Shown one piece after another: positions 19,468-63,227 of a stretch of 64,000 nucleotides of DNA. This DNA is from Oceanihabitans sp. IOP_32 (GTDB taxonomy: Bacteria; Bacteroidota; Bacteroidia; Flavobacteriales; Flavobacteriaceae), in NCBI RefSeq assembly GCF_009498295.1, contig NZ_CP040813.1, positions 1,247,001 to 1,311,000 on the forward strand. The letters are read 5' to 3'. Every line of letters begins with the position of its first letter. Position 1 is the first letter of the stretch. Made by a program: the position numbers and the translations under genes. The notes beneath the pieces are model-generated. The model saw only the letters and a program-made list of their open reading frames with translations. It was not told the origin of the DNA and did not search any database.

Positions 19468-20048
19468 TTTAAAAAAATTTACAGTGGCCGATTAGGCTTT
19501 TAAAATCTAGGCGTAAAGACCACCGCACATCACTCACAAAACAGGCGAAAGCTGTTTTATCACTTTTCTCTCCTTTAATTAAGGCCAATATCATAAAAAC
19601 CCCTTAGCTCTATACAACAAACAAAATATATTTCCAGTTGTAACTAAAATCAGCTCTTTTTAATGATATAAACCCATACCGAACACCGACGGTATAGCCA
19701 ATTAATGCACAGGTCTACTACATGGATTCACTTCTTTGCCATGACTTTCTGAAGGTTCTCATGCTCTAATTTGCATTTCTTTTTTACTCCAGTTTTATTA
19801 AAATTGCAGCCTAGCCAAGCTCACCCATCTATTAGAACAGTACTTAAAATGCTTAATTTGTACGCATCTAAAAACCCTCCTTTTCTTTTCATAGCTCATC
19901 TTATATAAATGATACGAATTTAATTTTGAAATGTCGTATTGTTAATTTGGTATGCATATAAAAAACAAACCGTTTAAAAGACGACAGTAGGCCTATATTA
20001 ATACTAAAATACAGTTAAACCCAAGTAATGGAAGAATAATTTACAAAA
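19468..20048. other. Long intergenic stretch without a recognised gene
   Basis: About 580 bases separate the SPOR terminator and the infB terminator. There is no credible ORF on either strand. The only structure I see is a remnant of the interspersed repeat at 19912-19953. A decayed gene or an unrecognised small RNA cannot be excluded. Confidence 0.4.
19912..19953 (+). repeat. Interspersed repeat, 42-bp remnant (copy F)
   Basis: ATACGAATTTAATTTTGAAATGTCGTATT matches the left end of copies B and C, then jumps directly to GTTAATTTGGTAT, their right end. The interior of about 200 bases is missing, as expected of an internal deletion derivative. Confidence 0.55.
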
Positions 20049-20083
20049 GCAAAAAGGCACCTATAATACAAGTGCCTTTTTGC
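20049..20083 (-). terminator. Terminator of the rimP-nusA-infB operon
   Basis: GCAAAAAGGCAC (20049-20060) pairs perfectly with GTGCCTTTTTGC (20072-20083), about 30 bases after the infB stop on the minus strand. Confidence 0.85.
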
Positions 20084-39700: not shown

Positions 39701-39900
39701 TTTTGAAATGTCGTATTATTAATTTGAATTATATTTTGTTCAGATGAGATAGAAATCGCAGATTCACGAACTCGTAATTATAAAATAATATGGGCGTGAG
39801 CTAAAATCAAAGCATAGCCGTAGCTATGGTTTGATTTTATACCGAAATATGGGCAAAAAAGAAACCAATTATATGCGACATGACATGGTTAATTTGGTAT
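39689..39900 (+). repeat. Interspersed ATACCAA/TTGGTAT repeat, copy C
   Basis: 212 bp, starting ATACCAATTTAATTTTGAAATG and ending GACATGGTTAATTTGGTAT. It lacks a block of about 40 bases near the right end that copies B and E carry (from GAACTGCGAAGCAC). It overlaps the last 12 bases of lysE. Confidence 0.8.
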
Positions 39901-42406: not shown

Positions 42407-42543
42407 TAATTATTATATCGTGAACTTTTTGCGTTAGGGATTGTAATGGAAATCCTTTTTTGAGGCACGAAAAAAAGATTGTATTGAAAAGCCCGACCTT
42501 TAGGTAACCTGCCAACTAGCAGGCTTGCGCCCAAATTAAAAAA

Positions 42544-60893: not shown

Positions 60894-61240
60894 TGCGACT
60901 ACCAACTACTTTTGATGCTTTAGTTGACCAAGCCAATCAATTAAATTTGTACCCCAAATTGATCCAACAACTCAATAAAGATTTTTTATTGGCCAATATC
61001 GATATGGATTTCCATGAAGAAGTTTTACCCACAAGTTTAAAGCTTTTATTACACGAAACCGTTTACAAACTTATTCAAAACAATTTTTCAGAATACCTAA
61101 ATCTACTTTACATTATTGATGTTTCTGAACCTAAAATAAAACGTTTAGACGGTAGTGATATGCGGCAACTATCAGAAGAAGTTACCTTTCTCATTCTTCA
61201 GCGCGAGTGGCAAAAAGTTTGGTATAAAAACAGGTTTTAA
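60893..61240 (+). CDS. Conserved-looking small protein coupled to polyprenyl synthase
   Basis: The 115-residue soluble protein is mostly predicted helix, without cysteines and without a signal peptide (RLPTTFDALVDQANQLNLYPKLIQQLNKDFLLANIDMDF). I recognise no named domain. Its ATG overlaps the TAA of the synthase (TAATG), a sign of translational coupling and joint expression. The tail (SEEVTFLILQREWQKVWYKNRF) is basic and aromatic. Function unknown. Confidence 0.7.
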   Translation: MRLPTTFDALVDQANQLNLYPKLIQQLNKDFLLANIDMDFHEEVLPTSLKLLLHETVYKLIQNNFSEYLNLLYIIDVSEPKIKRLDGSDMRQLSEEVTFLILQREWQKVWYKNRF

Positions 61241-61369
61241 ACAAAAACTTCCTAATCCCGATACAATTCTTCCCACAAAAATTAATAGATAACAAACTCT
61301 ATTTCAAATTAGTAAATATTTAAATAGTCGCCATCTTAAAAAGATTTTTTTTAAACAACAAATAAGTAT

Positions 61370-61377
61370 TACTTTTG
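61370..61377 (+). promoter_or_regulatory. TAnnTTTG -7 box of a candidate small RNA
   Basis: TACTTTTG, with no ORF downstream but a structured region and a terminator ending at 61540. Confidence 0.5.
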
Positions 61378-61381
61378 GCTA

Positions 61382-61540
61382 AATAAATATTACTACTTAT
61401 GGTTTAGGTTCCCATTTCTGGCCGATTTAGGACGCGAAAAGAACTTAAAATTGTAATACCATAATGCAGTAATATCAACATGAGTTTTTATTGGATTTAG
61501 TCTTAAAAGCCCTCGTAAACATGCGTTACGTGGGCTTTTT
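61382..61540 (+). ncRNA. Candidate structured small RNA, possibly 6S-like
   Basis: About 159 bases run from a promoter box to a terminator without an ORF. Nested pairings form one long imperfect hairpin: ATATTACT (61387-61394) with AGTAATAT (61468-61475), TTATGGT (61397-61403) with ACCATAA (61458-61464), and TTTAGGTTC (61403-61411) with GAACTTAAA (61441-61449). A further GGCTAAAT/ATTTAGTC pairing (61377-61384 with 61495-61502) may close the structure. The size and shape recall 6S RNA, which mimics open promoter DNA and binds RNA polymerase; a 6S-Flavo class has been described. The identity is not established. Confidence 0.5.
61505..61539 (+). terminator. Terminator of the candidate small RNA
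   Basis: AAAAGCCC-t-CGTAA pairs with TTACG-t-GGGCTTTT around seven bases and ends in T residues. The preceding gene ends 265 bases upstream, so it more likely serves the small RNA. Confidence 0.75.
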
Positions 61541-61616
61541 AATTGGTAACAAACAAGTCAGCCTTATCGAATCCCTAAATTTATCTGGCAAACTAAATAT
61601 CCATAAAAAATCACTA

Positions 61617-61829
61617 GTGTCCGATTAAAAATATTATAATGCTGTCAATCCTTTTAAAATTAAGAACTTTGCACGTTTTTTAAAATGTCACCTTGCTTAT
61701 TTGAATTAATTATTAAGATTTAAAGGAGCTATTTTGTTAATTAAAGCACTTCTGTTTATCAGTTAGTTAGAATAAAGTCTTGGTTCTTATGTCTATTAGC
61801 GAAGCGGTCTTATGTCTTTTGTCGGACAT
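61617..61829. repeat. Possible insertion-element remnant with GTGTCCGA/TCGGACAT ends
   Basis: GTGTCCGA (61617-61624) and TCGGACAT (61822-61829) are inverted ends (seven of eight pair) around about 200 bases with no intact ORF. TCTTATGTCT also occurs twice near the right end. This could be a decayed IS or MITE, or chance. The rest of 61541-61980 shows nothing else. Confidence 0.25.
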
Positions 61830-61980
61830 TAATGATAAAAAATAAAAGCTTGCATAAGAATAATACACAACTCTCGCAGCAAAACCTCGTTACCAATGTT
61901 TAAAAACACGAAAAACAATCAAATTTCAATTAAAAGCTACTTTTAATTAAGATAATTTTATCCCATATAAAATAAAGTTT

Positions 61981-61988
61981 TATCTTTG
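61981..61988 (+). promoter_or_regulatory. TAnnTTTG -7 box of the Rrf2 gene
   Basis: TATCTTTG ends 12 bases before the ATG at 62001, giving a leader of only a few bases. Confidence 0.6.
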
Positions 61989-62000
61989 TAGCCTTATTAC

Positions 62001-62444
62001 ATGCAAAATATGTTTTCTAAAGCTTGCGAATACGGTATTAAAGCATCTATTTTTATTGCTATAAACTCTTTTGAGGGTAAACGCGTGAGCCCTAAAGAAA
62101 TAGCACTAGAAATAGATTCACCACAGGCCTTTACCGCGAAAATTTTACAAGCCTTGGTAAAACACAATATCGTAAACTCTGTGAAAGGTGCTCATGGTGG
62201 TTTTGAAATGGATAAAAACAAAATTGCCAACGTAAAACTTAGTCATATTGTAAATGCCATTGATGGCGATTCTATTTACAAGGGTTGTGGTCTGGGTTTA
62301 CATACTTGCAATGAAGCGCATCCTTGCCCTGTACACGAAAAGTTTAAAACCATTCGAGACGAGTTAAAACACATGCTAGAGCACACTAGTTTAGAGGAAT
62401 TAGCACTAGATATAAAATCTGGCACTTCCTTTTTAAAAGTATAA
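62001..62444 (+). CDS. Rrf2 family regulator, NsrR-like with three-cysteine cluster site
   Basis: The 147-residue protein has the Rrf2 winged helix (FSKACEYGIKASIFIAINSFEGKRVSPKEIALEIDSPQAFTAKILQALVKHNIVNSVKGAHGGFEM). Three cysteines, Cys96, Cys103 and Cys109 (CGLGLHTCNEAHPC), match the cluster-binding spacing of NsrR or IscR. With a RIC protein directly downstream, a nitric-oxide- or iron-sulfur-responsive repressor is likely. An ATG three codons in is a possible alternative start. Its promoter box lies just upstream. Confidence 0.88.
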   Translation: MQNMFSKACEYGIKASIFIAINSFEGKRVSPKEIALEIDSPQAFTAKILQALVKHNIVNSVKGAHGGFEMDKNKIANVKLSHIVNAIDGDSIYKGCGLGLHTCNEAHPCPVHEKFKTIRDELKHMLEHTSLEELALDIKSGTSFLKV

Positions 62445-62495: not shown

Positions 62496-63227
62496 ATGGA
62501 AACATTACAAAAAGATTCAGAAAAACAAATTGCACAATTTGTAGCCGAAGATTATAGAACAGCCGCAGTATTTTCAAAATATAAAATAGATTTTTGCTGT
62601 AACGGGAATAGATCCATTCAAGAAGCTTGCGAAAAAAAAGGAATAGATAGTGCAATTTTAATAGATGAACTTCATAGCGTTTTAAGCGTTAAAGGAGAAC
62701 AGTCTATAGATTATAAATCGTGGCCATTAGATTTGCTAATCGATTATATTGAAAAAAAACATCACCGCTATATTGAGGAAAAAACACCTGTATTACAACA
62801 GTTTTTAAATAAATTATGCCGTGTACACGGTGAGCGTCATCCAGAATTACACAAAATAAACGAACTGTTTACCGCATCGGTAGGCGATTTGGCATCACAC
62901 TTAAAAAAAGAGGAACTTATATTATTCCCTTTTGTAAAAAAATTGGTTGCTGCTAAATTAAAACAAACCGCAGTAGAATCGCCACAGTTTCAAACGGTTG
63001 AAAACCCAATTGAAACGATGATGCAAGAACACGATAACGAAGGGGAGCGTTTTAGAGAAATTGCTGAACTTACAAATAATTACAACCCGCCAGCAGACGC
63101 CTGTAATACCTACAGAGTAGCCTTTGCTATGTTGGAAGAATTTGAAAAAGATTTACACCTACACATCCATTTAGAAAATAACATTTTATTTCCTAGAGCT
63201 ATAAAACTAGAGCAACAATTTGCTTAG
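62496..63227 (+). CDS. Iron-sulfur cluster repair di-iron protein RIC (ScdA/YtfE family)
   Basis: RIC proteins repair Fe-S clusters damaged by nitric oxide or peroxide. The 243-residue protein has the N-terminal ScdA domain with FCCNG (33-37) and a C-terminal hemerythrin-like bundle. Di-iron ligands are spread over KKHHRYIEEK, HGERHPEL, HLKKEELILFPF, QEHDNEGERF and HLHIHLENNILFPR. It is 51 bases after the Rrf2 gene and probably under its control. The length is normal for full-length RIC. Confidence 0.95.
   Translation: METLQKDSEKQIAQFVAEDYRTAAVFSKYKIDFCCNGNRSIQEACEKKGIDSAILIDELHSVLSVKGEQSIDYKSWPLDLLIDYIEKKHHRYIEEKTPVLQQFLNKLCRVHGERHPELHKINELFTASVGDLASHLKKEELILFPFVKKLVAAKLKQTAVESPQFQTVENPIETMMQEHDNEGERFREIAELTNNYNPPADACNTYRVAFAMLEEFEKDLHLHIHLENNILFPRAIKLEQQFA

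Follow-up and report, generated by a model that had tools for sequence, protein, structure and literature searches.

A predicted small RNA gene under a candidate NikR-type operator in Oceanihabitans sp. IOP_32

Does the intergenic stretch at 61370-61540 hold a gene for a regulatory RNA, and if so, which regulator would control it? The analysed genome (G000) is a single contig (C1) of 3,475,698 bp, and the window, the whole 64-kb stretch of DNA under study, corresponds to its positions 1247001-1311000. The initial annotation had proposed a free-standing structured RNA with its own promoter and terminator. Indeed, the TAnnTTTG box that it described is present on the forward strand as TACTTTTG (61370-61377), fitting the consensus of the flavobacterial sigma-A -7 box. 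This consensus is placed at -12 to -5 in the available text of PMC9723704, and the predicted transcription start is therefore at about 61382. By itself the box is at chance frequency, with 96 occurrences in the window against 98.5 expected. The stretch that follows is free of ORFs, as had been claimed, for about 160 nt, and the whole of 61241-61996 lacks a start-codon ORF of at least 50 aa. A rho-independent terminator, also part of the earlier description, lies at 61505-61540 on the forward strand (AAAAGCCC...GGGCTTTTT, about -16 kcal/mol) and is terminator-like on the reverse strand as well. Its pattern, AAAGCCC-N4-30-GGGCTTT, has one match in the window versus 0.03 expected; the strict terminator rule of our window scan flagged no terminator at 61505-61540. 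The predicted RNA thus spans box to terminator (61382-61541 on the forward strand, about 160 nt, no ORF), with a computed fold of -42.0 kcal/mol. The combination of box, non-coding stretch and terminator occurs as five pairs in the 64-kb window, the candidate being one, and two of the five lie at the tRNA-Gln gene, which serves as a positive control. The remaining pairs without an ORF, at 19929-20081 and 39706-39838 on the forward strand, could represent either the ends of genes or further small RNAs. Judged by these sequence signals, the candidate has the own promoter, the non-coding body and the own terminator of a free-standing RNA gene.

The predicted transcript is dominated by a long interrupted hairpin (61387-61475, forward strand, -24.0 kcal/mol). 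The nested pairings reported for it are real: the stems measure 8, 1+7 and 8 bp, with bulges and a weak tip. A small AU-rich hairpin follows at 61478-61501 in the minimum free energy structure. When the segment containing the hairpin (61385-61477, -24.0 kcal/mol) was compared with dinucleotide shuffles, its z-score was -3.87 and none of 200 shuffles folded as low. The same was true of 61385-61543, which includes the terminator (-42.0 kcal/mol, z -4.05, 0/200), and of 61385-61502, which excludes it (-26.0 kcal/mol, z -2.73, 0/200). The inner part by itself (61398-61460) is unremarkable, with z -1.19 and 21 of 200 shuffles as low. Across the 64-kb window, 71 of the 12,782 95-nt windows compared fold as well or better for their composition, and more extreme fold scores are found at 16 other distinct places. 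The structure is therefore beyond chance for its composition, though not exceptional by itself.

Which known RNA could this be? The initial annotation had read it as 6S-like or another structured regulatory RNA and had pointed to the Rfam models for 6S-Flavo (RF01685, cut-off 85 bits) and Flavo-1 (RF01705, cut-off 42 bits); neither matches at the candidate. The 6S half of this reading was not borne out, since 6S-Flavo finds nothing in 61200-62010 at a threshold as loose as E <= 10 and the sole match found in the genome lies at C1:2871202-2871328, with 101.4 bits. A 6S RNA or a 6S paralogue would account for the single long interrupted hairpin and for the length, but the likeness to RF01685 stops at hairpin architecture, and with the genome's own 6S-Flavo match elsewhere we rejected this identity as having next to no chance of being right. 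Flavo-1 was rejected too, as the window's sole above-cut-off match (42426-42502, forward strand, 54.1 bits) is away from the candidate. No Rfam family reached its gathering score in 61200-62010, where 12 weak matches, all far below, had a lowest E of 0.23. The other half of the proposal, a structured regulatory RNA of some other kind, stands as the best reading, and it is strengthened because the candidate shares an operator with other promoters.

This candidate operator is NikR-type, GTATTAC-N14-ATATTAC, 28 bp long (61366-61393, forward strand; half-sites at 61366-61372 and 61387-61393), and it covers both the -7 box and the predicted start. Its second half-site also forms the 5' side of the outer stem, and the hairpin may therefore owe some of its sequence to the operator; once the outer stems are left out, the fold is unremarkable (z -1.19). 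The site was first noticed through a weak match within the genome (C1:693571-693603, E 0.007) with the AGTATTACT unit at a 21-bp period. With zero mismatches, the pattern AGTATTACT-N12-ARTATTACT occurs at two places in the genome, one being window positions 61365-61394 and the other the promoter of a gene for a TonB-dependent receptor (TBDT), where three tandem half-sites follow one another with a 21-bp period (C1:693571-693600, reverse strand). The 30-mers of the two promoters are identical at 24/30 positions, the TACTTTTG box stands in equal register, and the string GTATTACTTTTG is common to both, with the box inside the site. The TBDT promoter has an additional box, TAGTTTTG, 29 bp further on. 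An apparent operon lies under this tandem operator (L162 5496-10034, reverse strand; C1 688995-693533) and encodes the TBDT, a Peripla_BP_2 protein and a fused TrmO-FmdE protein. Allowing up to two mismatches gave 10 matches at six genome places, against 3 matches for the backwards control. These places are the RNA, the first TBDT gene, an operon of Peripla_BP_2 protein, permease, ATPase, methyltransferase and TBDT, another TBDT gene, and two that are not uptake promoters, one being inside coding sequence and the other ahead of a small gene. The latter copy stands just before a gene of about 79 aa (L166 5970-6270; C1 about 2313969-2314269).

A tighter pattern, GTATTAY-N14-RTATTAY, has seven matches in the 3.48-Mb genome (four forward, three reverse), and all seven sites, located individually with four on the plus and three on the minus strand, account for the genome-wide count. 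They fall at just five promoters, that of the RNA and those of four predicted metal-uptake units. Two precede the genes for the first TBDT, its Peripla_BP_2 protein and the TrmO/FmdE protein (unit 1); two precede the Peripla_BP_2/permease/ATPase/methyltransferase/TBDT operon (unit 2); one precedes the other TBDT gene (unit 3); and one, GTATTAT-N14-GTATTAT, precedes a NikA-like (Opp/Nik-type) ABC operon (unit 4). The pattern was composed after the sites had been seen rather than predicted blind, and the evidence from its placement is therefore partly circular. The backwards control gave one forward and no reverse match in the same genome, so that about one chance match per genome is to be expected. 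The pattern is present in 196 of 299 family genomes; since counts range from 0 to 11 (G061 has 11, G195 8, and G072 and G091 7 each, the other genomes with at least seven), what counts as evidence is the placement of the sites, not their number. Three of them, at the RNA and both at the first TBDT, overlap a TAnnTTTG box on the gene strand; three more start 10, 13 and 35 bp past the first base of the box, and the seventh, second in its pair, some 100 bp past it. We infer from such locations, over or just behind the box, that the bound protein would act as a repressor.

Which protein might this be? Our first assumption for the 21-bp period, a LytTR- or AraC-type operator, was dropped once a nikR gene turned up near two of the sites. 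Its product scores 201.4 bits against NF003381 (cut-off 105) and 116 bits against PF08753, and among solved structures the closest are those of NikR (best E 1.3e-43). His and Cys positions are conserved in the alignment to 1q5v, which we take to be the E. coli NikR entry, and presumably correspond to the nickel ligands of that protein. The other TBDT gene sits between nikR and the Opp/Nik-type ABC operon; the sites of these two units are 2.4 and 7.7 kb from nikR, and only these units intervene.

The candidate operator resembles published NikR operators in length and half-site. In the available text of PMC545781, NikR operators are 27-28 bp long with the form GTGTTAC-[N13/14]-GTAACAC, and the sites include one GTATTAC half-site and also half-sites in the opposite orientation. 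The delta-proteobacterial operators described there are thus alike in their 28-bp length, in 7-bp half-sites 14 bp apart and in the GTATTAC half-site, whereas the half-sites here (GTATTAY...RTATTAY) are nearly direct, fitting a direct repeat better than an inverted one, and one promoter carries three units with a 21-bp period. The core pentamers here, TATTA and TATTA, are 16 nt apart. That spacing equals the one between TATGA and TCATA in the E. coli site, given as GTATGA-N16-TCATAC (PMC7055735).

No transport protein of the four units reaches a nickel NCBIfam cut-off, and the one that passes any NCBIfam cut-off, the TBDT of unit 2, does so as a siderophore receptor; the first gene of the NikA-like ABC operon has nickel_nikA as its best NCBIfam match, below cut-off. 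At the NikR_C cut-off of 22 bits, 4 of 299 family genomes have a match (G000 117 bits, G214 110.9, G217 52.8 and, marginally, G252 22.4), and an accessory RNA of such a regulon is therefore expected to be rare. The genome with the second strongest match, G214 (84% complete), has no exact GTATTAY-N14-RTATTAY match genome-wide, and the 20 kb around its nikR contain solely a 12-of-14 match, inside another gene. In G217, a divergent NikR_C regulator (contig C25, L172 9841-10500, 52.8 bits) belongs to a urea-carboxylase cluster and has GTATTAC-N14-TCATACT in front of it (L172 10720-10747). This 12-of-14 site was not taken as evidence.

The candidate lies between a 115-aa gene and an Rrf2 gene, which are separated by 760 bp in the window. 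Among 80 loci of the 115-aa gene, a full Rrf2 match follows on the same strand in 23 (L054 and L103, with Rrf2 fragments only, are outside the 23). From the last codon of the 115-aa gene to the Rrf2 match, the gap measures 62-83 bp in 17/23 and 156-671 bp in 6/23, and the hairpin model finds the RNA in none of these 23 syntenic relatives. The final 60 or so bases of the 760-bp gap correspond to the Rrf2 promoter region of relatives. Between the 115-aa gene and this promoter there are about 700 bp of extra intergenic DNA (61241-61940, limits approximate), which hold the RNA gene and a repeat element. The RNA therefore sits in DNA that either this lineage has acquired or its relatives have lost. 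Among named loci, the nearest come from Flavobacteriaceae, e.g. Flaviramulus, Gaetbulibacter and Algibacter. In three Tamlana relatives (L036, L038, L049) the intergenic spot measures 204-671 bp and looks, by eye, filled with other repeats, and the site therefore seems tolerant of insertions. Further downstream, the Rrf2 gene has its TATCTTTG box at 61981-61988, preceded by GATAATTTTATC (61951-61962); by eye, palindromes like it stand at the equivalent spot in syntenic relatives. This is possibly an operator of the Rrf2 regulator, beside an iron-sulfur repair gene at 62496.

The repeat element is a neighbour, separate from the RNA. It is MITE-like (61612-61834, about 225 bp), ends in CACTAGTGTCCG / CGGACATTAATG and is flanked by a 9-bp target duplication, ATAAAAAAT (61603-61611 and 61835-61843). 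At least 38 other dispersed copies, 81-99% identical, are present in the genome among the best 40 of 132 candidates scored, and target duplications are seen by eye at other copies too, e.g. L115 and L126. An array of the repeat at C1:1220003-1222036 comprises at least 12 pieces, one about every 171 bp.

Is the RNA itself found elsewhere? The initial annotation had tied its case to conservation of the paired segments in relatives, and here it fell short: neither DNA search nor the hairpin covariance model detected a homologue in the 298 other family genomes or in near relatives. By DNA, 146 of 299 family genomes had a match at E <= 0.1 when the best two candidates per genome were scored, and those outside the candidate's own place, among the matches listed, were short pieces (best 30 nt, E 8.4e-5). 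Among 42 genomes behind the 115-aa-gene loci (L033-L070, L076, L093, L097 and L102, from the 80 loci L033-L112), 15 had short pieces at E <= 0.01, the best 16 candidates at most being scored per genome. By eye, several such pieces resemble the promoters of other, unrelated genes, which have the TAnnTTTG box in common with the candidate. Phage sequences gave no DNA match, plasmid sequences one 42-nt piece, and viral contigs no match to one exact 21-mer of the candidate. The hairpin model (R1), being built from a single sequence, is a weak probe of distant relatives; it matched only the own genome among 299 family genomes (strict filters, best candidates scored) and again among 39 genomes, the 38 near relatives and the own, and across 28 sequence sources it found the own locus and one 15-bit match (E 3.1). 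The genus is represented by the own genome only. Such absence of conservation is equally compatible with a lineage-specific RNA and with there being no RNA at all.

Taken together, the best explanation is a lineage-specific small RNA gene belonging to the nickel (NikR) regulon, to which we assign a probability of about 0.5. The main rival, doubtful but to be taken seriously, is that a NikR-controlled uptake gene was deleted here, that its operator-promoter and terminator were left behind, and that the RNA is non-functional and its hairpin fortuitous. Several observations would fit such a relic, in that the stretch is extra DNA missing at this spot in 17/23 syntenic relatives, an unrelated repeat has inserted nearby too, and an ATG followed directly by GTT-TAG, 17 nt past the predicted start, could be what remains of a gene start; the 16 places of the window that fold more strongly for their composition point the same way. 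However, promoter, operator and terminator all appear intact, the hairpin stretch beats 200/200 shuffles, and the four peptides searched as possible coding remnants (61396-61557 on the reverse strand, 61473-61625, 61745-61900 and 61355-61453) gave no Pfam hit at E <= 1.

It is unlikely that the RNA is regulated by another protein, or in response to another metal, with the operator belonging to a general siderophore or metal regulon. The look of the regulon lends itself to this, since three of the four operator-bearing units are of TBDT and/or Peripla_BP_2 type and resemble siderophore systems more than established nickel systems, the sole transport protein above a cut-off is a siderophore receptor with none at a nickel cut-off, and G214 has nikR yet lacks an exact site. 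Against it stand the two sites near nikR, one of them before the operon whose first gene is nickel_nikA-like (below cut-off), and the agreement in 28-bp length and GTATTAC half-site with NikR sites in the published text available. Distinctly unlikely, in our view, is an ordinary 3' end of the polyprenyl-synthetase operon, with the terminator serving upstream genes and with box, operator and hairpin arisen by chance. The upstream 115-aa gene does stop about 265 nt short of the terminator, TAnnTTTG boxes are no commoner than chance and the backwards control predicts about one chance operator match per genome, but this would leave unexplained why the match lies over the -7 box in the very register of the TonB-receptor promoter.

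How would a NikR-regulated small RNA work? Since the operator is common to the RNA and to predicted metal-uptake promoters near nikR, the RNA is probably on at nickel shortage. With nickel plentiful, nickel-loaded NikR would sit on the operator at 61366-61393 and block RNA polymerase at the -7 box and start; with nickel short, the repressor would come off and the hairpin RNA of about 160 nt, ending at the terminator at 61540, would be produced alongside the metal-uptake genes under the shared operator. Once made, the RNA would probably act in trans by base-pairing, e.g. in nickel sparing. Duplex energies against 87 gene starts (the window plus L162-L166) revealed no target enrichment, the eight regulon gene starts ranking 13, 18, 48, 57, 63, 71, 72 and 83 of 87. 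As a more specific and tentative possibility, less probable than membership of the regulon as such, a newly arisen RNA of this one genome may have been wired into a rare NikR regulon with half-sites of 21-bp period, where it would serve as a nickel-sparing regulator. In either case, a candidate NikR regulon and operator are supplied here for Flavobacteriaceae. Our literature search on NikR and nickel in this family found only a bioreporter review.

To conclude, the closest parallels to this predicted circuit come from Helicobacter pylori, where three ncRNAs are repressed by nickel-NikR (PMC5385501) and one of them, IsoB/NikS, controls other genes (PMC9294342). Like Nrr1, Nrr2 and IsoB/NikS, as described in the available text of PMC5385501, the candidate is a short non-coding unit whose core promoter lies under a NikR-type operator; nickel is predicted to silence it and lack of nickel to switch it on. 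It differs in belonging to another phylum, in its flavobacterial -7 box, in being predicted from sequence and in the spacing of its core pentamers, which is 16 nt here and 15 nt in the H. pylori site (TRTTA and TAWTA; PMC5385501). The likeness drawn here is one of predicted regulation, and no kinship is claimed. In Streptomyces coelicolor, s-SodF is likewise a nickel-responsive small RNA, but it originates from an mRNA 3' UTR and is controlled by Nur, a Fur-family protein (PMC9294342, PMC5385501). The table of a 2022 review, in the portion available, names NikS of H. pylori as the one sRNA under NikR (PMC9294342). If our reading is right, the candidate would be, as far as literature searches showed, the first sRNA under NikR control to be described outside Helicobacter and, in Bacteroidota, the first sRNA that responds to nickel. 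A second case after that of H. pylori, in another phylum and with no homologue found, would suggest that metal repressors repeatedly recruit new small RNAs.
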